Below, in pieces: positions 11,406 to 24,778 of a stretch of 26,368 bases of DNA. The notes beneath the pieces are model-generated. The model had not been told where the DNA came from, did no database searches, and worked only from the letters and a program-made list of their open reading frames with translations. Origin of the DNA: a virus; IMG/VR virus record IMGVR_UViG_3300002144_000205, positions 1 to 26,368 of that record. One strand, 5' to 3'. The translations under genes and the position numbers were made by a program. Position 1 is the stretch's first letter. Each line of letters starts with the position of its first letter.

Positions 11406-11921
11406 TTAAACTTTCCCTTTTAAATACTCAAGTACTTTTTCAGGAGAGGTTTCTTCATAGGGATCTGTAGCACAATCATCTTCTTGACCAGGTTCACTAA
11501 ACATCCTTTCAACAGTACCATCGTCTACGACCATAGCATATCTCCAAGATCTTTTACCGAAACCAAGATTATCTTTTGCGACTAACATATCCATTCCTGC
11601 TGTAAATTCACAAGATCCATCCGGAATAAATTTAACATTCTTTACTCTTAGATCTTCTGCCCAAGCATTCATAACGAATGTATCGTTACAAGCAATACAA
11701 TAAACCTCGTCAACGCCTTGCGCTACGATCTGATCGTGTAACACATCAAATCCTGGGACTTGATTATTTGAACAGGTTGGCGTAAATGCGCCGGGCAGGG
11801 AAAATACAACTACTCTTTTATTTTTAAAATAGTCTTCTGTTGTAGGATAGGTCCACTCGAACTCTCCGCTATCAACATTTCTACTTCTTACTTTAAAAGT
11901 TACATTAGGTATAGTTTTCAT
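11406..11921 (-). CDS. Peroxiredoxin, Prx5 (AhpC/TSA) family
   Basis: 171 residues, full length for the Prx5 group. The active-site motif P-x3-T-x2-C is PGAFTPTC with P43, T47 and the peroxidatic Cys50; the second conserved element is R127 in SWRYAMVVDDG. C150 (in EDDCATDP) could be a resolving cysteine. The enzyme would reduce hydrogen and organic peroxides using thioredoxin, glutaredoxin or glutathione, in the cytoplasm. It follows Hsp20 on the same strand and is closed by a terminator. A peroxiredoxin is a host-type metabolic gene and unusual in a T4-like genome, most likely acquired from bacteria to protect the infected cell from oxidative stress. Confidence 0.93.
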   Translation of the reverse strand: MKTIPNVTFKVRSRNVDSGEFEWTYPTTEDYFKNKRVVVFSLPGAFTPTCSNNQVPGFDVLHDQIVAQGVDEVYCIACNDTFVMNAWAEDLRVKNVKFIPDGSCEFTAGMDMLVAKDNLGFGKRSWRYAMVVDDGTVERMFSEPGQEDDCATDPYEETSPEKVLEYLKGKV

Positions 11922-11978: not shown

Positions 11979-12428
11979 TTAACCTTTTAAGAATTCCTTC
12001 TTAGTATTAATCTTTATTTTACGAGCCTTTTTACTTTCTGGAATTATTCGTTCCAATGCAATTGTTAAAAGACCATTTTTGAAGTTAGCGTCAATTACCT
12101 CAATGTCGTCTGCAAGAGTAAAACTTCTTGTAAACTTTTTAAAGGAAATTCCGCGATGAACGTATTCGCCGCCGCCGTTAAAGTAATCTCCTGCTTCATC
12201 CCACGTGGAACGAACAGTTAATATATCTTCTTTTACTTCGATTTCTACATCATCAATATCAAGACCTGCTAAAGCAAGATCAATAAAGAACTTTTCACCT
12301 TTAGTGGTTCTGATATTATAAGGCGGGAAGCCTGCAGATTGATGTTGAGGGAACTGCTCCAGTCTGTTGAAAACTCTATCGAATCCAAGTGCAAACGGGT
12401 GTAGTTGGTTTATATTTAATCCAGTCAT
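11979..12428 (-). CDS. Small heat shock protein, Hsp20/IbpA-like
   Basis: 149 residues. The alpha-crystallin domain spans about residues 38-140: PPYNIRTTKGEKFFIDLALAG, then VEIEVKEDILTV, YVHRGISFKKFTRSFTLADD, and NGLLTIALERIIPESKK. This is the IbpA branch, found in many marine T4-like phages, where it may help fold or protect virion and replication proteins. Ribosome site AGGAG (12435-12439) is six bases before ATG. The ~90-base leader holds three hairpins, the last of which covers the ribosome site (separate entry). Early and late promoters both precede it. Confidence 0.95.
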   Translation of the reverse strand: MTGLNINQLHPFALGFDRVFNRLEQFPQHQSAGFPPYNIRTTKGEKFFIDLALAGLDIDDVEIEVKEDILTVRSTWDEAGDYFNGGGEYVHRGISFKKFTRSFTLADDIEVIDANFKNGLLTIALERIIPESKKARKIKINTKKEFLKG

Positions 12429-15609: not shown

Positions 15610-15638
15610 TTATAACAGGTTTATTTAGATTTGTCAAT
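15610..15638 (-). promoter_or_regulatory. Early sigma70 promoter for gp45 and replication genes
   Basis: TTGACA (15638-15633), 17 bases, TATAAT (15615-15610), with an extended -10 TGT just before. It overlaps the 3' end of the upstream glycosyltransferase gene and would drive 45, 44, 62 and regA. Confidence 0.88.
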
Positions 15639-16490
15639 AGGATTATAAGACTTTCTGTTAGATGTATTATCTGCAGTTGCCGTAACACCTAATTGACCAA
15701 GAGATCCCATGTCACCCTTAAAGATATAAGAACCAACATGGTTGATTTTCATCCAAGGACACATCCATACTGATAGACCAGCTTTGCGAGCCATTTTACA
15801 GAAGAAGTAGTCTTCGGATAAGTACCTTCTAGATTCTGGGTCGATGACACAATCAAAGAAAGCGTGGATATCTCGAGTACCGTCAAATTGTTCTGTCCTA
15901 ACGTGGTCTGGTCTATATGCCAATTCAGGATAAGCATCTCGATATTTCTCTAATGCACCTCTTGTAATTAACATAAATCCAGTACCGCCTTCGGCAACTT
16001 CAACTGGTTCTGCGAGTTTAAATTGTTTTATACCTCCAACTGGATTAAAAACAAAATCTGATGTAAATTTTTCTAAGTCAAACGGATTCTCTACGCCTAC
16101 GCCAGCTTTGGCAGCTGCAGCAACCTTTTCCCAAGCAATTGTCTTCTTAGGATATGGACCGCATACAACATCGTATTTTTCTGGATCTGAAATCTGCAAT
16201 GCAAGTAATGCTAATGCATCACGTGGATCAAATCCAATGTCTGCGTCAATAAACAACAGATGAGTACAGTCAGAACGAAGGAATTCATCTACGATATAGT
16301 TCCTTGCCCGTTGAATTAAACTTTCGTTGAATAGAAAGTAGTACTTCATTGGAATTTTGTGAGAACTACATAGCATACTTAAATCGTTAGTCGATTTGGT
16401 ATATAGTCCTGTACACTGACCACCATACATAGGTGTACCAATAAAGAGTCTTTGTTTTTGTAGTTCTTCTGTCTTTACTTCTAACTTCAT
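15621..16490 (-). CDS. GT-A type glycosyltransferase
   Basis: 289 residues. A Rossmann-like start (RLFIGTPMYGGQC), NESLIQRARNYIVDEFL, and the metal/nucleotide-sugar motif D82-A83-D84 in LLFIDADIGFDP mark a GT-A fold enzyme near family GT2. The acceptor side has EGGTGFMLITRGALEKY and YLSEDYFFCKMARKAGLSV, with a late His in MKINHVG. The stop lies over an early promoter and the start overlaps DexA by four bases. It could modify phage DNA, as a second transferase for the sugar pathway downstream, or host surface glycans. The acceptor cannot be read from sequence. Confidence 0.83.
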   Translation of the reverse strand: MKLEVKTEELQKQRLFIGTPMYGGQCTGLYTKSTNDLSMLCSSHKIPMKYYFLFNESLIQRARNYIVDEFLRSDCTHLLFIDADIGFDPRDALALLALQISDPEKYDVVCGPYPKKTIAWEKVAAAAKAGVGVENPFDLEKFTSDFVFNPVGGIKQFKLAEPVEVAEGGTGFMLITRGALEKYRDAYPELAYRPDHVRTEQFDGTRDIHAFFDCVIDPESRRYLSEDYFFCKMARKAGLSVWMCPWMKINHVGSYIFKGDMGSLGQLGVTATADNTSNRKSYNPIDKSK

Positions 16491-17150: not shown

Positions 17151-17179
17151 ATTATAACACAGTTTAGTCATTATGTCAA
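17151..17179 (-). promoter_or_regulatory. Early sigma70 promoter for dexA
   Basis: TTGACA (17179-17174), 17 bases, TATAAT (17156-17151), with extended -10 TGT. It lies in the 59-base gap between the methyltransferase stop and dexA. Confidence 0.88.
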
Positions 17180-17184
17180 CGGTT

Positions 17185-18402
17185 TTATACAAAGAATTCA
17201 GTTAAATTTTGTCTCATGTCCTTACCGAGAGGATCAAACATCGTTTCTTCTTTGTGATTGTTTTGACGTAGGAAGGTTGTATCAGATAGTTCTAATTCAC
17301 CACGTAAGAATTTCGCAATTTCACCATGAATACTTGCGGATGTAGGAACAGGTACGTTTTGAGCAATATGATTTACTTTCGTAACACCACCAACAAGTTC
17401 AAAATCTGCAGGGAATCCCATCATGTGTAATGCTTCACGAATTGTCATTGATCTTTCGTATACAGGATGAATTGAATCAACCATGTTACGACCAATCACT
17501 GCATTCATATATTCACCAAAGACGTGAACTGAACCATCCCAAATACCTTTACCATCAGCAAACTTCATTATAGCATGATCAGATAGTTTAATGCCTTTCT
17601 CATTTTTGGTATCTTTAAACCATTTGTTGGCTTCTTCTAACATGCCGTTACGTTGAACCCATTGGAAGGTTGATTTAATATCTTCTTCAATACAGACTTC
17701 ACGAGGATCACGATTAGTTTTTACCTTGATGAATTTGTAATAAGGTTCTGTATCAATATTCTTATTAATAATCAAATCATGTTGTAACGCGCCATCAGGA
17801 ATCTCAGCAAGATGATCTTTAAATGATTTGCGATCTTTCTTGAACCAATTCATGACTGGCGCAGTAGGTGATTTCCATCCAATAGCAAAAGTACGATCTC
17901 TTGCTTGAGGTAAACCATGATATTTGGAAGATGTTTTATATAGAGTCAAACTATATCCACGTTCTTCACAAATCTTATAAAGGTTCTCGGCAACACCTCG
18001 GCCTTTCTTTGTGTATAATGCAGGAGCGTTTTCAACGACCACAACTTTTGCACCAAGACGGTCAATCCCATCTTCAAATACTTTGTACATCCATTCGTTC
18101 TTTGCACAACCTGAACCTTTTACTTCTTCGCTTTTACCAGTATTCAATTGAGATAGAGCAGCACAAGGAGGAGTACCAGAGACAACGTCAACTTGTCCTC
18201 TTGGTTCATCTGAATCCAAAAGTACGTATTCAAGACCTCGGTTATGTACATTGTTTTGATAGTTCATATAATGTGAATCGTTTGCTTCGAAACCATCATA
18301 CGAATATACTGCTTCAGGTGGAACGCCAAACGCACGTTCAGCGCCAAGCATTTGTCCACCAATGAGTGGCACAAGAGGTGCCCATTTAATTTGTTCGTTC
18401 AT
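17185..18402 (-). CDS. C5-cytosine DNA methyltransferase-like protein
   Basis: 405 residues. Motif I-like PLIGGQMLGAERAFG at 12-26, motif IV GTPPCAALS with nucleophile C80, motif VI VVENAPAL with E124, motif VIII GLPQARDRTF with Q166, R168 and R170, motif IX-like MTIREALHMMGFPADF, and motif X-like HIAQNVPVP. All catalytic residues for transferring a methyl group from S-adenosylmethionine to C5 of cytosine are present, and no matching restriction enzyme is seen. PCAALS and IAQNVPVP differ from the usual PCQxFS and GNAVPP and mark a phage subgroup. It is the last gene of the modification operon. Its job is puzzling because the same operon should make C5-hydroxymethylated cytosine. TTGGAG precedes the ATG. 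Confidence 0.88.
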   Translation of the reverse strand: MNEQIKWAPLVPLIGGQMLGAERAFGVPPEAVYSYDGFEANDSHYMNYQNNVHNRGLEYVLLDSDEPRGQVDVVSGTPPCAALSQLNTGKSEEVKGSGCAKNEWMYKVFEDGIDRLGAKVVVVENAPALYTKKGRGVAENLYKICEERGYSLTLYKTSSKYHGLPQARDRTFAIGWKSPTAPVMNWFKKDRKSFKDHLAEIPDGALQHDLIINKNIDTEPYYKFIKVKTNRDPREVCIEEDIKSTFQWVQRNGMLEEANKWFKDTKNEKGIKLSDHAIMKFADGKGIWDGSVHVFGEYMNAVIGRNMVDSIHPVYERSMTIREALHMMGFPADFELVGGVTKVNHIAQNVPVPTSASIHGEIAKFLRGELELSDTTFLRQNNHKEETMFDPLGKDMRQNLTEFFV

Positions 18403-18446
18403 TATTTAATCTCCAATTACGAAAAGTTTTAATCATCTATTATTAA

Positions 18447-19691
18447 TTATAATTCTAAACCGGCGAACTCTTTTACAAAGTGTTTAACACGATTATGTAA
18501 AAACGATCCATCAAATAGGCCATCGCTTTCTAAGAATCTCCAAAGTTTATCTTGTATAGCTTTACGTTCTTGTGGGTTTGCTTCAAGGTAATCTATCTTT
18601 TCCCACATATCCTCAGCACTATCAATTCTCAATATCTTGGGTATCGGTAAAATACTTTCAGTATCGTATCCTGGATGAAAGAATGGAATGATACCGTATA
18701 CGATCATCTTCCAAAATTTCTGAGTGACAAAGTTACCTGTGGGTTGATGCGGTGGTGGAATGATTGTATATTTTGTTCTATAAAATTCATCTTCCACTTC
18801 AGCAATTCTTTTTTCTTCAAACATATGTGGATACTGAGTCGTAAATTCTTCAGCCCATTTTCCATATACTTTAACATCGGTACGTCCTTTATCAAGAAAC
18901 CAATCTTTAATAAATCCGTCTCGAGATTGACCACCATTCAAACCAATAGTGAACAGGATATCCTTATCTATATCTCTCCAATCAACTTTCTTTTCATTAA
19001 GCATAAAGATTGTTTCGATTGCGGAATACCTGTGATCTTCGTCAACATCTATTCTATTCAAAGAATCGTCATAAGCAGTAATTCTTTTTGTTTTGAACTT
19101 GCCTTCTGTTTGACTCATTACAACCTTAGGTTCATTCAATATATCTCTTGCGATAGAAGGAACGTATTTAGGATCTCCACACAAACCAATCCAAGGAGTT
19201 TGACGAATATTTAGAACGTGCATAATCGGTGCATAATAGTTTTCAAACATTTCCAAAGATTTTGCTGGCCCAGTTCCATCAAGTCGCATAATACCTTTAT
19301 TAGAAATACCAACATTAGGCATTGGACCGTAATAGATAAGACCTAGATCAAACTGTAGATTCATATTATCAAGTTTAGTTAATAACCAATCATGAATAGC
19401 AATACCTGCAGCATCATTTGCTTTCTTATCCCAATCTTCAAATAGATCTATAATATTACTTGGTACTTTAGATTCAGGTTCCTCTCCAAAGAAAGATCCT
19501 AATGTATCAGTATTTTCTTTTTGGCGAATCCTTGTTAGATCCGAACGACCAAGTAAATAAAAGTTATGTTCAGGATGGCGTTCTGCCAACATAGTATACA
19601 TCATAGGCGCTTCTTCATCGCCTGCTGTCATACTACGATTTTTTTCGTTAAAGTAGATCGAGCGACCGATCTTACCAATTACAATATTCAC
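18447..19691 (-). CDS. Glycosyltransferase, GT-B fold, candidate DNA glycosyltransferase
   Basis: 414 residues from GTG 19691, chosen because GGGGGA lies 5-11 bases upstream and the protein then begins MNIVIGKIGRSIYF, a normal first Rossmann strand; the frame is open 27 codons further upstream. The C-terminal half resembles T4 beta-glucosyltransferase as I remember it: LNGGQSRDGF against a GGS-x-RSGQR segment, and NFVTQKFWKM against NFITLRVWET, the latter part of the UDP-glucose site, followed by a common T at YDT. It overlaps the nucleotidyltransferase gene by 20 bases. I infer that it moves the operon's sugar to hydroxymethylcytosine in DNA. A glycan-modifying GT-B enzyme is the alternative. 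Confidence 0.7.
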   Translation of the reverse strand: MNIVIGKIGRSIYFNEKNRSMTAGDEEAPMMYTMLAERHPEHNFYLLGRSDLTRIRQKENTDTLGSFFGEEPESKVPSNIIDLFEDWDKKANDAAGIAIHDWLLTKLDNMNLQFDLGLIYYGPMPNVGISNKGIMRLDGTGPAKSLEMFENYYAPIMHVLNIRQTPWIGLCGDPKYVPSIARDILNEPKVVMSQTEGKFKTKRITAYDDSLNRIDVDEDHRYSAIETIFMLNEKKVDWRDIDKDILFTIGLNGGQSRDGFIKDWFLDKGRTDVKVYGKWAEEFTTQYPHMFEEKRIAEVEDEFYRTKYTIIPPPHQPTGNFVTQKFWKMIVYGIIPFFHPGYDTESILPIPKILRIDSAEDMWEKIDYLEANPQERKAIQDKLWRFLESDGLFDGSFLHNRVKHFVKEFAGLEL

Positions 19692-21285
19692 TATTCGTCC
19701 CCCATTTATGTAGAAGTCTTTTGCCAAGATAGTACAGATACATTGAATATGGAAATTCGTGTAACGCAGCAACGTTTAAGTATATCAACGCCGTTAAAAT
19801 CTTGACTCTTTCAATGTCGAATCTATTATTATTTAGCCATTTATAATAATCTTGCTCAGCATCCACCAAGATAGAAGGACGATGAATATCAACAGTGACA
19901 TTCTTTGAGTCAGAATAATCAACACTAAACAGATCACGATGAACCATCCCATGAGAAACAATCAATCCATGATTGAATTTAGCAAGGTCATAATAAGCAT
20001 CGCCTATTTCAAGATTACCTTTACCAAAGTTTTGTCTCCAATCAATTAGAATAGGATCGCCGTTAGAATCAATCAAAATATTTTCGTTATGGAAATCACC
20101 ATGAAACGCAGTAGCATAAGGATCATCACAAAGCATATCCCAATTAATACCATCAAGCAAAGCCTGAACAGTTGGAACTTCAATTCCGTTAATTTTGCCT
20201 GCTTGATCCATTACTTCGTATTTGCTATGAAACAGATCGACACGGTCTTGTGTCTTTGTTTTGTAGAAATCATAACAAGAAGCAATAAGTTCTGGTGTTG
20301 CATCTGTTAGATTAGGTTGCCACATCTTTGCATTAATAGAATCTAATACATGATTCATTACAGGTTCGCTTATTTTACTACTAAGCAGACCACCTTCAAT
20401 CATATCATAGACATACAAGTTAGTATCTGAATACGTAATCTTTGGAAACAAATCTTTATCGAGAACTTCTAATCTTTTAATACGATCTGATATAAAGGTT
20501 TCATCAATTGAGAACTTAATTACTTGACCGTCTTTAAACCAGATTGCTTCGTTTTCTTTTTCGAGAATATTAAATTCATGTTCGTCTAATGTTTCTCTTG
20601 TCTTTCTAAGAGATTCCATATTACCAATATCACACCATGATTTAAATTCAATGGCTCTTACATTTGATAGACCTTGCATCCCGTACGACTCACCCATAGA
20701 CACTGCTTGAGGGCTTTCCATGTCCTGCCAGAACTTATGAAAATCTTGAATACCAGCAATACCAATGTAGACATTACCGTCGTTCTCGACTCCTTTCGCA
20801 TTAATGTTTCCGACCTTATATTGACAAGTTCCTTTATCGTATACAACACTTAATGTACGGTATTGAGTTGTATCTCCTTGGACTTTGTTATATCCCATCC
20901 AATTACCAAACTTTGACATTTCAGAAGGATCTAAATTACAGCGATCATTAGGAATAACAGTATCGTTAGAAACAAATATGAATGGACACTGCAGGCTCTT
21001 TTTGGCGCAGTTTAAAGTGTATCCAAGGCCTGCTCCTTTGCCCTCCCAATTATCCACTTGAATAAACTTTATGTTTCTCTCAGGAAAGAATGCAGTGACT
21101 ACCTGACGAACGTAATCGCCTTTGTAACCGAGTAAGATAATAATTTCTTCTGCATCAGGAAAGTTATCAATGATATGAGCGATTGCTGGTTTATTATTAA
21201 TTGTCACCAACGCTTTATTCATAAATTTAGTATAAGGGCCAATTCTTGACCCAATACCTGCTGATGGAATAACTACCTTATACAT
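19672..21285 (-). CDS. Fused sugar-1-phosphate nucleotidyltransferase and APH-like kinase
   Basis: 537 residues from ATG 21285, preceded by AAGGAG; the frame opens 24 codons earlier but that stretch lies inside the previous gene. Residues 1-235 are a nucleotidyltransferase: PSAGIGSRIG (7-16), KALVTINNKP (24-33), GKGAGLGYTL, and FVSNDTVI with D108. Residues ~245-537 are an aminoglycoside/choline kinase-like domain: Brenner motif HGDFHNEN at 395-402 and metal-binding IDW at 414-416. Such a fusion can phosphorylate a free sugar (or choline) and activate it as an NDP compound. With an isomerase, an epimerase and a phosphatase next to it, a sugar is the likely substrate. The gene overlaps the epimerase gene by eight bases. 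Confidence 0.88.
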   Translation of the reverse strand: MYKVVIPSAGIGSRIGPYTKFMNKALVTINNKPAIAHIIDNFPDAEEIIILLGYKGDYVRQVVTAFFPERNIKFIQVDNWEGKGAGLGYTLNCAKKSLQCPFIFVSNDTVIPNDRCNLDPSEMSKFGNWMGYNKVQGDTTQYRTLSVVYDKGTCQYKVGNINAKGVENDGNVYIGIAGIQDFHKFWQDMESPQAVSMGESYGMQGLSNVRAIEFKSWCDIGNMESLRKTRETLDEHEFNILEKENEAIWFKDGQVIKFSIDETFISDRIKRLEVLDKDLFPKITYSDTNLYVYDMIEGGLLSSKISEPVMNHVLDSINAKMWQPNLTDATPELIASCYDFYKTKTQDRVDLFHSKYEVMDQAGKINGIEVPTVQALLDGINWDMLCDDPYATAFHGDFHNENILIDSNGDPILIDWRQNFGKGNLEIGDAYYDLAKFNHGLIVSHGMVHRDLFSVDYSDSKNVTVDIHRPSILVDAEQDYYKWLNNNRFDIERVKILTALIYLNVAALHEFPYSMYLYYLGKRLLHKWGTNSEYCNW

Positions 21286-21979
21286 GCATATGCTCCTTAA
21301 TTGCAGCACTGTTCTCCGCGACAGTGAAAGGCTTCTTGTAAATTGTGGATGAACCACCTACAAAGAATGTTGCACCTGCTTTCTTAAGTTCAGGAATAGT
21401 GTCAAACGATACTGCACCGTCAACTTGAATTGTGCATGTGTCAGGGTTAATACCTTCTGCGATTAATCTTTCTTTGAACTCAATGATCTTTGCTGCAAGT
21501 ACTGCAGGTTTAGATACTTGGTCTAATACACCTGGATGGATACCTAAGAACAATACAAAGTCAAGGTCAAGATATTTTACTAACTGAATTGTAGACTCCA
21601 TGTTAGAACCCATATTCAAAGCAACACCTGCGGTCTTACCTAGTTTACGGATCTTGTCAATGATTCTTACTGAGTTTGCTTCGTTCCCATCAATATGGAA
21701 AGTAAAGGTTGTGATATTATCAATACCACTAAATTGGTCAATGACAAACTCTGGGTCTTCACACATGATATGACAGTCTTGTAACATATCAGGAAACTCT
21801 GTAGCGATACGTTGACATATCTCAGGAAAGATTCCTAAACGTGGAACATAATGACCGTCCATAATATCAATGTGTAGATACTTATGGCCCATTGCCTGTA
21901 GTTCAGCAATATCACGTTGAGTGTTTAAAGGATCAGTACATACGACTGACGCGGAAAAGGTTGGTTCTAGTATTTTCAT
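21278..21979 (-). CDS. Ribulose-phosphate 3-epimerase-like protein
   Basis: 233 residues with the Rpe TIM-barrel pattern. The four metal ligands of Rpe are in place: H36 and D38 in YLHIDIMDGHYVP, H70 in DCHIM, and D187 in TIQVDGAV. GIHPGVLDQVS replaces the usual MTVNPGFGGQ loop, and GGSSTIYK matches the phosphate-binding end. It should interconvert ketose phosphates at C3, most likely ribulose-5-phosphate and xylulose-5-phosphate; allulose-6-phosphate epimerase is the alternative. A metabolic gene with no counterpart in T4, placed between the isomerase and the activating enzyme. Confidence 0.87.
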   Translation of the reverse strand: MKILEPTFSASVVCTDPLNTQRDIAELQAMGHKYLHIDIMDGHYVPRLGIFPEICQRIATEFPDMLQDCHIMCEDPEFVIDQFSGIDNITTFTFHIDGNEANSVRIIDKIRKLGKTAGVALNMGSNMESTIQLVKYLDLDFVLFLGIHPGVLDQVSKPAVLAAKIIEFKERLIAEGINPDTCTIQVDGAVSFDTIPELKKAGATFFVGGSSTIYKKPFTVAENSAAIKEHMHV

Positions 21980-21982
21980 AGG

Positions 21983-22501
21983 TTACTCCAAAATTGAATG
22001 GTTATGTGTTATAATGTCTCTGTCAAGTTCTAAATTAGAAACAACTGATTCAGTTACATAGTCAAATAGTATATATGAATATTGTTCGTAAATAGTTTTC
22101 ATCAACTGATGAGATTCTAATGTAGGAGTCTCAACGACCAAATCACTTAACATAGCAATAGTACTAGTTTTGTTACAAGTGATGGTAATTATATATGAAC
22201 CTGCAGCTCGTGCCTGTTCAGCATATAGTATGTTCGTTGGAGTCTCGCCTGATGAGCTGTTAATTACAACTACTGAATTACTGTCAATTCGTGGGAGTGT
22301 TGTATCGCCGATGAACCATGTGTCGTATCCAATGTGTGATAGACGCATAATGTGAGCACGTAAAGAATAACCCATACGACCTGCACCAATACCGATGATT
22401 GGTTTCTTAGCAACATATGCTCCTTCTAGAGCAGTGATGTATCCTTCGAGACCTTTCGTACCTTCGTACATTGCTTCTATTTCTTCAAAAATCTTTTTCA
22501 T
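21983..22501 (-). CDS. SIS-domain sugar-phosphate isomerase
   Basis: 172 residues, a single SIS domain with no CBS domains. IIGIGAGRMGYSLRAHIMRL (36-54) and FIGDTTLPRIDSNSVVVINS, then SSGETPT (83-89), resemble 6-phospho-3-hexuloisomerase (HxlB) and arabinose-5-phosphate isomerase (KdsD). It should interconvert a ketose phosphate and an aldose phosphate. With the ribulose-phosphate epimerase downstream, ribulose-5-phosphate to arabinose-5-phosphate is an attractive guess. The start overlaps the HAD gene by four bases (ATGA). Confidence 0.85.
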   Translation of the reverse strand: MKKIFEEIEAMYEGTKGLEGYITALEGAYVAKKPIIGIGAGRMGYSLRAHIMRLSHIGYDTWFIGDTTLPRIDSNSVVVINSSSGETPTNILYAEQARAAGSYIITITCNKTSTIAMLSDLVVETPTLESHQLMKTIYEQYSYILFDYVTESVVSNLELDRDIITHNHSILE

Positions 22502-22959
22502 AATATAGGGGACCTGTTTAATATAGTTAGTGCAACATGCAATAATACACCTTCACCACCATTACAAGGTACTATGTGGTCAGCATAATGTTTTGCACGA
22601 TCTGTTGCGTTATAAGGAGCGAAACCTAATTCGCATTGTTGTAATGATTCTGCATCGTGCCATCCGTCACCGACAAATGCTGTACCTTCAAAACCAAATT
22701 CCGATTGAATGTAATCAAGCCTTTCAGATTCTGAAACTAACTTGATAGGAACATTCATATCGTTAAGGCGTTTTTCTGTAATAAAGAATCCACGTTTATC
22801 CGCAGTGATTGCATATGTCTTGATACCAGCCGCAGCCAACATCTTAATGCCATCATTATCGTGCGGACCGAACTTCTTCATTACTTTACCATCTTGGGTA
22901 TAGTAGAATCCACCATCAGTCATTACACCGTCTATGTCCGTAACTAATCTCTTAATCAC
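22498..22959 (-). CDS. HAD phosphatase, KdsC-like
   Basis: 153 residues, a cap-less type C0 HAD enzyme. Motif I is VTDIDGVMTDGGF with D8 and D10, motif II is AITAD with T52, and motif IV is VGDGWHDAE with D98 and D102. The usual motif III lysine appears to be R80 (SESERLDYI). KdsC removes phosphate from KDO-8-phosphate; relatives act on other sugar phosphates. Next to a SIS isomerase and a sugar kinase-nucleotidyltransferase it most likely removes phosphate from the isomerised sugar phosphate. It overlaps both neighbours by four bases. Confidence 0.88.
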   Translation of the reverse strand: MIKRLVTDIDGVMTDGGFYYTQDGKVMKKFGPHDNDGIKMLAAAGIKTYAITADKRGFFITEKRLNDMNVPIKLVSESERLDYIQSEFGFEGTAFVGDGWHDAESLQQCELGFAPYNATDRAKHYADHIVPCNGGEGVLLHVALTILNRSPIL

Positions 22960-23420
22960 TGGTTAAACTCCAATCTCTTAATCATGGTTAAACTCCATGC
23001 TATACCAACCTCGTCAAACATATCTTTTGTTTTATCAAACGAATCTATCCATCTTTGTGGAACATCTGTTGCATCCATTACAATTCTATTTATGCCCGTC
23101 TGAACAATTCCTTTGGCGCAGTTAGAACAAACGGGTAATCCATAAACATATAATGTTGCGTCTTTACAAGAGATACCATTAGCAGCTGCGTTGTAAATTG
23201 CATTCATTTCAGCATGAACAACCAATTCGTACTTAACTTCCCTGTTCTCATATCGTTCAGTGCTGTCATCAATACCTTTAGGAAAACCGTTATAACCCGT
23301 AGCAAGGATACGCTTATCTTTAACAATAATTGCACCAATTTTTTTACTAGGATCTTTTGACCAAGTAGAGATTTCTTTTGCTACAGCTAAGAATCGTTTA
23401 TCCCAAGTATCATTAAGCAT
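22956..23420 (-). CDS. cd: dCMP deaminase
   Basis: 154 residues. The zinc site is H69-A-E71 (VVHAEMNAIYN) with P96-x-C98-x2-C101 (LPVCSNCAKG), and the lead-in is KIGAIIVKDKRILATGYNGF. This is the deoxycytidylate deaminase family; T4 Cd (193 residues) turns dCMP, and hydroxymethyl-dCMP, into dUMP-type products for dTMP synthesis. It lies between the dCMP hydroxymethylase and the sugar genes and overlaps the HAD gene by four bases, so dCMP is drawn into both dTMP and hm-dCMP. Confidence 0.93.
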   Translation of the reverse strand: MLNDTWDKRFLAVAKEISTWSKDPSKKIGAIIVKDKRILATGYNGFPKGIDDSTERYENREVKYELVVHAEMNAIYNAAANGISCKDATLYVYGLPVCSNCAKGIVQTGINRIVMDATDVPQRWIDSFDKTKDMFDEVGIAWSLTMIKRLEFNQ

Positions 23421-23423
23421 TGA

Positions 23424-24110
23424 TTAGTTCTCGTCCCAATCATCGCTCGGAGCATTGATTAGTTCTTCAATTAAACTGAAATGCCTTTCATATACATGAA
23501 GATTAGAAGCAGTCCATATCAGATCACCACAAGCCACGCCAAGGTCATCGGCCAACTTACGTTGAACATACTTAGCCCAAGCTACATCATTGTTATAGCC
23601 AAACACTGCATCGTTAGAACGCATCAGGTAATGCGAAATCAAACAACCATCTCTAATCATAAATGTATTAGAATAAGTACACATGAAATCGTTCATTCCA
23701 TTGCGACTGAAATCCAAGTGCATAGACGGTCTGTTATATAGCATCACTGCACGTCGAGAGTTTGGATTGTTTCTCAATTCACGAAGAACGTGTTTATATT
23801 GGTCACCATTGTCTGGAGAGAATATGCACCAACCATAGTTAGAATTGATCTTACCTTCATTAGAAGATATATCTTTCCAAATCTGCGGTGTCTCTCCAGG
23901 AATATCATCAACATATAAGGATTGAGACTCGTACCATTCTAGTTCTCGTTCAATGTACTTATATGCTGGTTTTCGGATAATCCAATCTTCAGTAGCAACA
24001 AATGATTCACCAAGAACTTCAATAGTTTTTGCGCCTGTCCTATCAATGATAAAATCTTCTGCAAGATATTTCTCGATTAGGTCTGCTCTGATATCATTCG
24101 TGCATTTCAT
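23424..24110 (-). CDS. 42: dCMP hydroxymethylase, gp42-like
   Basis: 228 residues (T4 gp42: 246), closely matching T4 gp42: DFIIDRTGAKTIEVLGESF, IERELEWYESQSLYVDDIPG, and NEGKINSNYGW. It belongs to the thymidylate synthase fold. C144 in DFMCT is the nucleophile, equivalent to T4 C148. D175 in YNNDVAW equals T4 D179, the residue that sets dCMP instead of dUMP specificity (Asn in thymidylate synthase). The enzyme makes 5-hydroxymethyl-dCMP from dCMP and methylene-tetrahydrofolate. It implies that genomic cytosine is hydroxymethylated. Its start overlaps the DsbA-like gene by one base. Confidence 0.95.
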   Translation of the reverse strand: MKCTNDIRADLIEKYLAEDFIIDRTGAKTIEVLGESFVATEDWIIRKPAYKYIERELEWYESQSLYVDDIPGETPQIWKDISSNEGKINSNYGWCIFSPDNGDQYKHVLRELRNNPNSRRAVMLYNRPSMHLDFSRNGMNDFMCTYSNTFMIRDGCLISHYLMRSNDAVFGYNNDVAWAKYVQRKLADDLGVACGDLIWTASNLHVYERHFSLIEELINAPSDDWDEN

Positions 24111-24364
24111 TAGATTGCTTCCAACAGTGCTTCAATATCAGATACTTCGCCAATTAGATCTGAAACGTTTTGATTATGATAAGCTCGAGCCGCTTTGCGT
24201 AGAATACTTTTGGGTACTTCCACTTCGTCGGCTAAGGCATTAATTGCTTCTTTCTGAAAATCACGTTCTGCTGCCATTCTTGTATAAGAATTACTCATTT
24301 CTTCCATGCAACCACGGATTCGTTTCAAGTCTTCAGGTGAAGACGGTAATATCACATTACTCAT
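24110..24364 (-). CDS. dsbA: DsbA-like dsDNA-binding protein
   Basis: 84 residues, all helical. The C-terminal half (INALADEVEVPKSILRKAAR, then AYHNQNVSDLIGE and EALLEAI) resembles the pattern of T4 DsbA (89 residues), a double-stranded DNA-binding protein that stimulates late transcription. The N-terminal half is less alike. It overlaps both neighbours by one base in the modification operon. The call depends on memory of a short protein; a plain small helical protein is the alternative. Confidence 0.55.
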   Translation of the reverse strand: MSNVILPSSPEDLKRIRGCMEEMSNSYTRMAAERDFQKEAINALADEVEVPKSILRKAARAYHNQNVSDLIGEVSDIEALLEAI

Positions 24365-24723
24365 TATTTAGTACTCCTGTTAAATACATTTTTAGTAAAA
24401 TCCTGACCTTTAATACCTTGACGACAATATGCAACAAAGAAACTTGAGTAGTTAATCAAATCTTTTGCTGAATCTTCAAGTGATTCAAAGTTAGGGGTAT
24501 AATCATCTGACTGCATTGCATCCATCACTGACTTCATACGTAGCATTTTAGCGTGCATAATGTCATGGATAGTTATAATACCGTTCGGATAATAATCTGC
24601 TTGCTGAACTGTAGAGTTCGGATTTTGATAATCTTTAGACTTCTTCAACTGTAACTGAATACATTCTTGTAGAACATCAACCGAGACTGGGTTGGGCTGA
24701 GTGGATGGTGGTTCTTTTGTCAT
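24364..24723 (-). CDS. DUF1599/Nmad1-like nucleotide-modification-associated protein
   Basis: 119 residues. The pattern LQLKKSKDYQNPNS, a Gly-rich turn, IHDIMHAKMLRMKSVMD, then FESLEDSAKDLINYSSFFV, fits the DUF1599 family, named Nmad1 for its link with modified-base phages and distantly related to MazG-type all-alpha NTP pyrophosphatases (K-x2-DY, K-x2-R and E-x2-xD-x2-DLINY positions). It is the first gene behind the operon's early promoter. A role in nucleotide pool control, such as removing dCTP so that only the modified form is used, is inferred. Confidence 0.65.
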   Translation of the reverse strand: MTKEPPSTQPNPVSVDVLQECIQLQLKKSKDYQNPNSTVQQADYYPNGIITIHDIMHAKMLRMKSVMDAMQSDDYTPNFESLEDSAKDLINYSSFFVAYCRQGIKGQDFTKNVFNRSTK

Positions 24724-24746
24724 ATAGACTCCATAATAAAAAATGT

Positions 24747-24775
24747 ATTATAACACAATTTGACTGGTTTGTCAA
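24747..24775 (-). promoter_or_regulatory. Early sigma70 promoter of the modification operon
   Basis: TTGACA (24775-24770), 17 bases, TATAAT (24752-24747), with extended -10 TGT. It lies in the 55-base gap before the Nmad1-like gene. No other strong promoter or terminator is visible until 17185, so it probably drives ten genes. Confidence 0.88.
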
Positions 24776-24778
24776 TGG

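Follow-up and report, generated by a model that had tools for sequence, protein, structure and literature searches.

A predicted phage operon for glycosylated hydroxymethylcytosine DNA whose sugar-donor genes and glycosyltransferase are exchanged as a block

Can a virus make both the modified base of its DNA and the activated sugar that decorates this base? The question is raised by a tightly packed minus-strand operon (positions 24723–17185) in IMG/VR record IMGVR_UViG_3300002144_000205, a 26,368-base virus record from a T4-like marine myovirus, which was analyzed at its full length and is termed the window here. The ten operon proteins (Table 1) include a thymidylate synthase (TS) homologue, a KdsC-type HAD phosphatase, a SIS isomerase, an Rpe-like epimerase, a nucleotidyltransferase (NTase)-kinase fusion, a glycosyltransferase (GT) and a C5-methyltransferase. 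An initial annotation had read them as a pathway for 5-hydroxymethylcytosine (hmC) and a self-made nucleoside diphosphate (NDP)-sugar. Our analysis makes it probable that the operon makes and decorates hmC DNA with a gp42-type enzyme, a donor cassette and a GT resembling T4 DNA beta-glucosyltransferase (BGT), and that the cassette and the GT are exchanged together.

The modified base is most likely hmC, because the PDB matches, the identity to gp42, the phylogeny and the RSND...D motif of the window TS homologue all point to gp42. In the PDB search, T4 deoxycytidine monophosphate (dCMP) hydroxymethylase was matched with an E-value of 2.8e-70, compared with 3e-13 for the next family, and the window protein is approximately 50% identical to T4-type gp42. 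In the TS-homologue tree, it clusters with gp42 and marine relatives (support 97/96), and RB69 ORF048c and Thanatos TH1_062 form a separate pair on a long branch. Both the catalytic Cys144 and Asp175, which replaces the Asn that specifies deoxyuridine monophosphate (dUMP), are present; the dCMP-specifying D175 and the hmC type of base proposed initially are thus real and supported, respectively. The RSND...D motif is retained in the window protein, whereas RB69 and Thanatos have RSQN/RSEN. The precedent invoked by the initial annotation is outdated: the modification of RB69, originally described as arabinosyl-hmC, has been reassigned in Mosigvirus DNA to arabinose on 5-hydroxycytosine, and the 5-hydroxycytosine enzyme is a TS homologue other than the hydroxymethylase (PMC13390438). 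The window enzyme is not of that type. For RB69 ORF048c, which is represented in the PDB by an entry of its own (9iqc), T4 hydroxymethylase is absent among the matches listed. A 5-hydroxycytosine reading of the window was rejected on the basis of the TS phylogeny, the residues and the PDB matches.

The donor genes and the transferase swap as a block within a constant frame. Sister contigs (L063, L056, L062 and L067) share the backbone of the window, including the Nmad1-like protein (approximately 91% identity), the hydroxymethylase (78–87%), the exonuclease (75–91%), a GT-A-like protein (85–99%) and the clamp (89–99%). Between the deaminase and the methyltransferase, however, they carry a HAD fused to a kinase-like domain and a cytidylyltransferase-like protein, sometimes with a further protein of approximately 300 residues. 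Their GT is 28–29% identical to the window GT, and their methyltransferase is 67–72% identical. The breakpoints are sharp and lie at the deaminase end and the methyltransferase start: in six of six sister contigs compared at the DNA level, similarity stops at 22978–23025 and resumes at 18395. Contigs with the GT of the window (n = 6) have flanks that are 82–98% and GTs that are 94–98% identical; in those with the other cassette (n = 17), the flanking proteins are 80–95% and the GTs 28–29% identical. No intermediate between the two GT types was found among phages of the window's backbone. In a third arrangement (L071, L074 and L083), a remote NTase-kinase is accompanied by a small HAD and a further large protein. 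We rejected the idea that the swap had replaced part of the methyltransferase, because its divergence extends along the whole protein (52–82% per 40 residues). Because the donor genes and the GT swap together, which is otherwise hard to explain, the HAD-SIS-Rpe-NTase/kinase set most likely supplies the donor of the GT. This natural cassette swap is new here; it appears that viruses trade the chemical coat on their DNA as one piece.

The fold of the GT also suggests DNA as its acceptor. Pfam returned a weak GT-B signal for this protein. An AlphaFold model built from 29 homologues (mean predicted local distance difference test score 85) was matched best by T4 BGT entries in Foldseek (1nzd, 2.0e-9). 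The top four VIA-align matches were also T4 BGT (Z 20.2 to 19.4; rmsd, the root-mean-square deviation, 4.3 over 315 residues for 1j39), followed by the next protein at Z 17.9; T4 alpha-glucosyltransferase was among the structure matches as well (Z 16.1). The model thus shares the GT-B fold of BGT along its full length. The sequence profiles agree (hmmsearch against 1nzd, E 0.0017; hhalign, E 1.1e-5), and the hhalign alignment spans BGT residues 108–326, so that the BGT catalytic base Asp100 lies outside it. In this alignment, BGT Glu272, which we take to contact the ribose of uridine diphosphate (UDP), is paired with Lys328 of the window GT. Because Lys328 stands at this position, the GT is not filed as BGT; the model suggests that it is BGT-like in mechanism. 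The equivalent residue is Lys in 8/8 GTs with a cassette-A NTase-kinase, Glu in 18/18 GTs with other cassettes, and Glu or Ser in the three most distant GTs of the alignment. Judged from the sequences, Lys328 may reflect a different donor nucleotide or descent alone. In T4 alpha-glucosyltransferase, the conserved GT-B glutamate Glu311 was described as ribose-binding (PMC6024577).

Scans of IMG/VR recovered 83 loci of this GT family, which correspond to 28 distinct loci at 92% identity. With near-duplicate contigs included in these counts, a gp42-like enzyme lies within 9 kb of the GT in 35/35 loci that have enough upstream sequence, and a C5-methyltransferase lies within 6 kb in 81/83. In contrast, among 66 viral loci found via the NTase-kinase alone, the GT occurs in three and the hydroxymethylase in two, and neither occurs in 72 bacterial NTase-kinase loci. 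The marker of the DNA system is therefore the GT and not the sugar cassette, which was rejected as diagnostic alone since NTase-kinases are widespread without hydroxymethylase. The initial annotation had named the occurrence of the sugar genes mainly in capsule/LPS clusters of phages lacking hydroxymethylase as evidence against its reading; this pattern is half borne out for the cassette (2/66 viral and 0/72 bacterial loci) and does not hold for the GT. Its proposal of a self-made NDP-sugar followed by DNA glycosylation draws support from the BGT-like fold and the cassette swap, but not from the cassette by itself. In three marine viruses without hydroxymethylase, the NTase-kinase (L099 9944–12762, L118 9983–12895 and L147 9983–12832) was seen by eye to neighbor many glycosyltransferases, or a cupin, a GatZ-like aldolase and a HAD; these enzymes probably serve surface or virion glycans.

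What sugar the cassette makes is addressed by its four enzymes. The SIS protein is much closer to HxlB-type proteins (PDB 1jeo, 2.6e-18) than to the phosphosugar isomerase 5uqi (8.2e-5), and a KdsD-type arabinose-5-phosphate isomerase was rejected on this ground. At 101 bits, it remains below the curated NCBIfam score of 160 for HxlB (6-phospho-3-hexuloisomerase). Because it is HxlB-like rather than KdsD-like, arabinose cannot be claimed as the sugar of the cassette, and the product may be a pentose or a hexose. The Rpe-like protein has the superfamily motifs; its TIGR01163 and NF007266 matches are both below the curated cut-offs, and its 124.8 bits are below the 212.6 set by NCBIfam for ribulose-phosphate 3-epimerase. 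The motifs of the NTase-kinase (GIGSR, HGDFHNEN and DWR) are intact in profile scans and alignment (phrog_4098, 6e-23). Anomeric kinase/nucleotidyltransferase pairs (AmgK/MurU) and the GDP-heptose pathway serve as models for the step order, which by analogy would run from ketose phosphate to aldose phosphate, dephosphorylation, C1 phosphorylation and activation.

A SAR86 genome contig (L197, 6281–9569) has these four genes in an identical order (HAD-SIS-Rpe-NTase/kinase), next to what was read by eye from the sequence as Wzz-like and UDP-sugar genes. Unlike the window, this locus has neither a hydroxymethylase nor a window-type GT, and its NTase-kinase falls outside the phage clade. In the NTase-kinase tree, the proteins of GT-bearing phages group in a clade of their own (92/86), separate from those of bacteria and of other viruses, with one GT-bearing phage (L025) placed outside it, and Thanatos TH1_060, which is of the RB69 type, is very distant (branch 3.95). 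A SAR86 surface-polysaccharide locus is a possible source of the phage cassette, which, independently of RB69, seems to have been taken over from bacterial polysaccharide synthesis for use on DNA.

Several known systems share parts of this plan. In T4, b-gt lies directly downstream of gene 42, both near the clamp and polymerase genes, and the gp42 and GT proteins correspond to those of the window in sequence and fold, respectively. However, T4 borrows host UDP-glucose, whereas the window has a built-in four-gene donor cassette, a C5-methyltransferase and Lys in place of BGT Glu272. RB69/Mosigvirus phages have their own sugar-donor genes, with a SIS isomerase and an NTase-kinase fusion beside a TS homologue (PMC6024577, PMC13390438). 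They differ in the 5-hydroxycytosine base, the TS clade, a SIS described as KdsD/GutQ-like and a U32 protein, a family that was absent from the ten operon proteins in a Pfam scan; the NTase-kinase has the same domain plan, with very distant homology. In the Shewanella phage Thanatos, TH1_060 and TH1_062 are likewise clustered, and the modification was reported as a (deoxy)pentose on cytosine (PMC12838424), but the TS is of the RB69 type and a separate UDP-xylose pyrophosphorylase (TH1_063) is present. Enterococcus phage 9183 (L003 8752–13185) has in a row a TS homologue, a dUTPase, a HAD, an NTase-kinase and a homologous GT. It is, however, a Gram-positive siphovirus with 21–31% identity, and SIS, Rpe and C5-methyltransferase were not found in the stretch examined. 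In its TS homologue, annotated as thymidylate synthase, the dCMP position is occupied by Asp, and phage 9183 is likely a modified-cytosine phage of a Gram-positive host. Another isolate, Pseudoalteromonas phage vB_Psh_XG4, also carries a homologous GT. Sugar-decorated phage cytosine with a phage-made sugar is known from Mosigvirus, and phage-made donors for DNA are an established idea (RB69 and Thanatos; PMC6024577, PMC12838424). The novelty lies in the gene combination, as the initial annotation suggested, and chiefly in the exchange of the cassette. The gene families of the operon are not mentioned in the MetaGPA paper.

The C5-methyltransferase is a puzzling member of the operon. This putative methylase retains the catalytic motifs IV (PC), VI (EN), VIII (QxRxR) and X. 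Listed initially as one gene among others, it proved to be a constant rather than an incidental partner of the GT (81/83 loci), which it accompanies through deep divergence (32–98% identity). It also doubles along with the GT: L100 (1222–13063) has two GT-methyltransferase pairs and two NTase-kinases, along with SIS, Rpe, HAD and a single hydroxymethylase; it may make two different sugars or a disaccharide. Two C5-methyltransferases stand in tandem in L013, and cyanophage S-TIM5 (L242 5757–10194) has a C5-methyltransferase of this family separated by a few genes from a TS homologue whose dCMP position is Asp (RSND...D). Either replacement of cytosine is partial, or the enzyme has residual or host DNA as its substrate, or it became a partner of the GT. 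The last option belongs to a broader scheme that we put forward tentatively, in which a widespread marine phage platform of gp42-type hydroxymethylase, BGT-like GT and near-constant C5-methyltransferase takes plug-in cassettes. The window cassette would then provide a sugar new on hmC from a nucleotide other than UDP, and the C5-methyltransferase-like protein would assist the GT, for example by choosing or flipping sites, and would be no ordinary methylase.

Some observations weigh against hmC glycosylation by this operon. A C5-methyltransferase fits poorly with full replacement: every C5 position would be taken by a hydroxymethyl group, which would leave the enzyme without a substrate. Full replacement also requires an hm-dCMP kinase and a dCTPase, neither of which was seen among the proteins of the operon. 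In longer relatives, searches for the T4 dNMP kinase gp1, the T4 dCTPase gp56 and TET, made without positive controls, were empty. Near-duplicate contigs enter the linkage counts (83 GTs, 28 at 92% identity), Lys328 could be a clade trait without meaning for the donor, NTase-kinases occur mostly without hydroxymethylase in viral and bacterial loci, and the four-gene cassette stands in a bacterial surface-polysaccharide locus (L197). The last two points lead to another reading, in which the cassette serves host-surface glycan remodelling, for example to exclude other phages, and stands beside the hydroxymethylase by chance. Relatives of the NTase-kinase are indeed found in bacterial polysaccharide loci and in viral regions that are rich in glycosyltransferases and lack hydroxymethylase, and O-chain modification has been argued for pelagimyophage glycosyltransferases (PMC7029224). 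This reading is nevertheless unlikely, given a GT that folds like a DNA glucosyltransferase, a GT family linked to gp42-like enzymes in 35/35 loci, and a cassette that swaps with the GT between the deaminase and the DNA methyltransferase.

Replacement of the donor genes and the GT as one block, together with Lys at the Glu272 position of cassette-A enzymes, also speaks against real hydroxymethylation with a GT that uses host UDP-glucose as in T4 and a cassette sugar destined for something else. We give this reading little credence, although T4 BGT, the nearest solved fold, uses UDP-glucose. An RB69/Mosigvirus-type system that makes arabinosyl-5-hydroxycytosine deserves hardly any. The two loci resemble each other in having a TS homologue, a SIS isomerase and an NTase-kinase near clamp and polymerase genes, and the NTase-kinases are distantly homologous; but the window TS homologue is gp42-like and outside the RB69/Thanatos clade, the U32 protein of the RB69 module is missing from the ten operon proteins, and the long branch of 3.95 separates the window NTase-kinase from TH1_060. 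The predicted operon for hmC glycosylation is real, coherent and well supported by sequence and structural model.

Its layout is in agreement with the initial description of a single minus-strand operon with a consensus promoter, overlaps of 1–20 bases or gaps under 50. A 12/12 promoter precedes the open reading frames and no perfect TTGACA-17-TATAAT site lies inside. Six such sites, all on the minus strand, span approximately 13 kb of the window (25703, 25082, 24775, 17179, 15637 and 12553). When the NTase-kinase is taken to start at 21285 and the GT at 19691, as is likely, overlaps were observed at the junctions Nmad1/DsbA-like (1 base), DsbA/hydroxymethylase (1), deaminase/HAD (4), HAD/SIS (4), Rpe/NTase-kinase (8) and NTase-kinase/GT (20, the largest), and gaps at hydroxymethylase/deaminase (3), SIS/Rpe (3) and GT/methyltransferase (44, the largest). 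Open reading frames and family profile scans recovered all the gene families named initially on this strand; the Nmad1 call is weak in Pfam, and the list had omitted a DsbA-like gene, which is a backbone gene outside the modification pathway. Homologues of the Nmad1-like protein, 53–94% identical, adjoin hydroxymethylases in other phages. In the gene-set search proposed initially, independent IMG/VR contigs showed this gene order again, which makes the arrangement more than chance.

Table 1. Features of the operon and its borders in the window.
Feature	Position	Strand	Basis and remarks
Sigma-70-like promoter, TTGACA-17-TATAAT, 12/12	24747..24775	-	Before operon; consensus match alone
Nmad1/DUF1599-like small protein	24364..24723	-	PF07659 E 0.034 (below cut-off); phrog_18404 3.6e-13; phrog_1485 2.1e-10
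DsbA-like late-transcription DNA-binding protein	24110..24364	-	phrog_639 2.8e-12
dCMP 5-hydroxymethylase, T4 gp42 type	23424..24110	-	Cys144 and Asp175 present; PDB 1b49 E 2.8e-70
dCMP deaminase	22956..23420	-	HAE, PxCxxC zinc motifs; phrog_174 2.2e-47; PF00383 5.8e-21
Exchanged segment HAD-SIS-Rpe-NTase/kinase-GT	18396..22990	-	In sister phages: unrelated donor genes and 29% identical GT
KdsC-type HAD phosphatase (cassette gene 1)	22498..22959	-	NF058599 1.7e-20; TIGR01670 4.6e-19; PDB 3mn1, 1j8d; motifs
SIS phosphosugar isomerase, HxlB-like (cassette gene 2)	21983..22501	-	TIGR03127 6.4e-29 (below cut-off)
Rpe-superfamily ketose-phosphate 3-epimerase (cassette gene 3)	21278..21979	-	PF00834 1.7e-36; TIGR01163 2.9e-36; NF007266 3.7e-30
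Sugar-1-phosphate nucleotidyltransferase fused to APH-type sugar kinase (cassette gene 4)	19672..21285	-	537 aa from ATG at 21285
GT-B glycosyltransferase, T4 DNA beta-glucosyltransferase-like fold	18447..19691	-	Start probably 19691; TTG at 19772 possible
C5-cytosine DNA methyltransferase, motifs IV, VI, VIII, X	17185..18402	-	PF00145 2e-20; alignment; motif positions
Sigma-70-like promoter, perfect	17151..17179	-	Belongs to next gene, marks operon end

The closest relatives of the window's clamp loader are those of Methylophilales phage Melnitz and cyanophages, and the operon locus has no near match among phage isolates at the DNA level. Just outside the operon lies a second, GT-A-like protein (15621–16490, phrog_1574) that is also kept in phages with the other cassette. 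A peroxiredoxin (11406–11921, phrog_2281) and an Hsp20-like chaperone (11979–12428) are located downstream of the replication genes; in L071 (6830–7390), a peroxiredoxin-like open reading frame adjoins the hydroxymethylase.

From the sequences and the GT model, we infer as follows how the enzymes act, in which order the sugar is made and how the DNA is protected. The gp42-type enzyme would convert dCMP to 5-hydroxymethyl-dCMP, which would then be polymerised into phage DNA, while the deaminase would divert leftover dCMP to dUMP. The Rpe-like epimerase and the SIS isomerase would turn a ketose phosphate into an aldose phosphate, from which the KdsC-type HAD would take off the terminal phosphate; the APH-type kinase domain would phosphorylate C1 and the nucleotidyltransferase domain would then yield the NDP-sugar. 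The BGT-like GT would transfer the sugar to hydroxymethyl groups in DNA and, by analogy, shield this DNA from nucleases. One recombination that carries the donor cassette and the GT together would change the DNA coat of otherwise near-identical phages.

The sugars on viral DNA, and the ways of changing them, decide which restriction and type IV nucleases can act. The locus suggests that a donor pathway and its transferase move together as an exchangeable unit, which may have been acquired from bacterial polysaccharide genes and would give viruses a quick route to alter their DNA chemistry. It offers test objects for new DNA sugars, for DNA glycosyltransferases with defined donors and for the purpose of the companion C5-methyltransferase.

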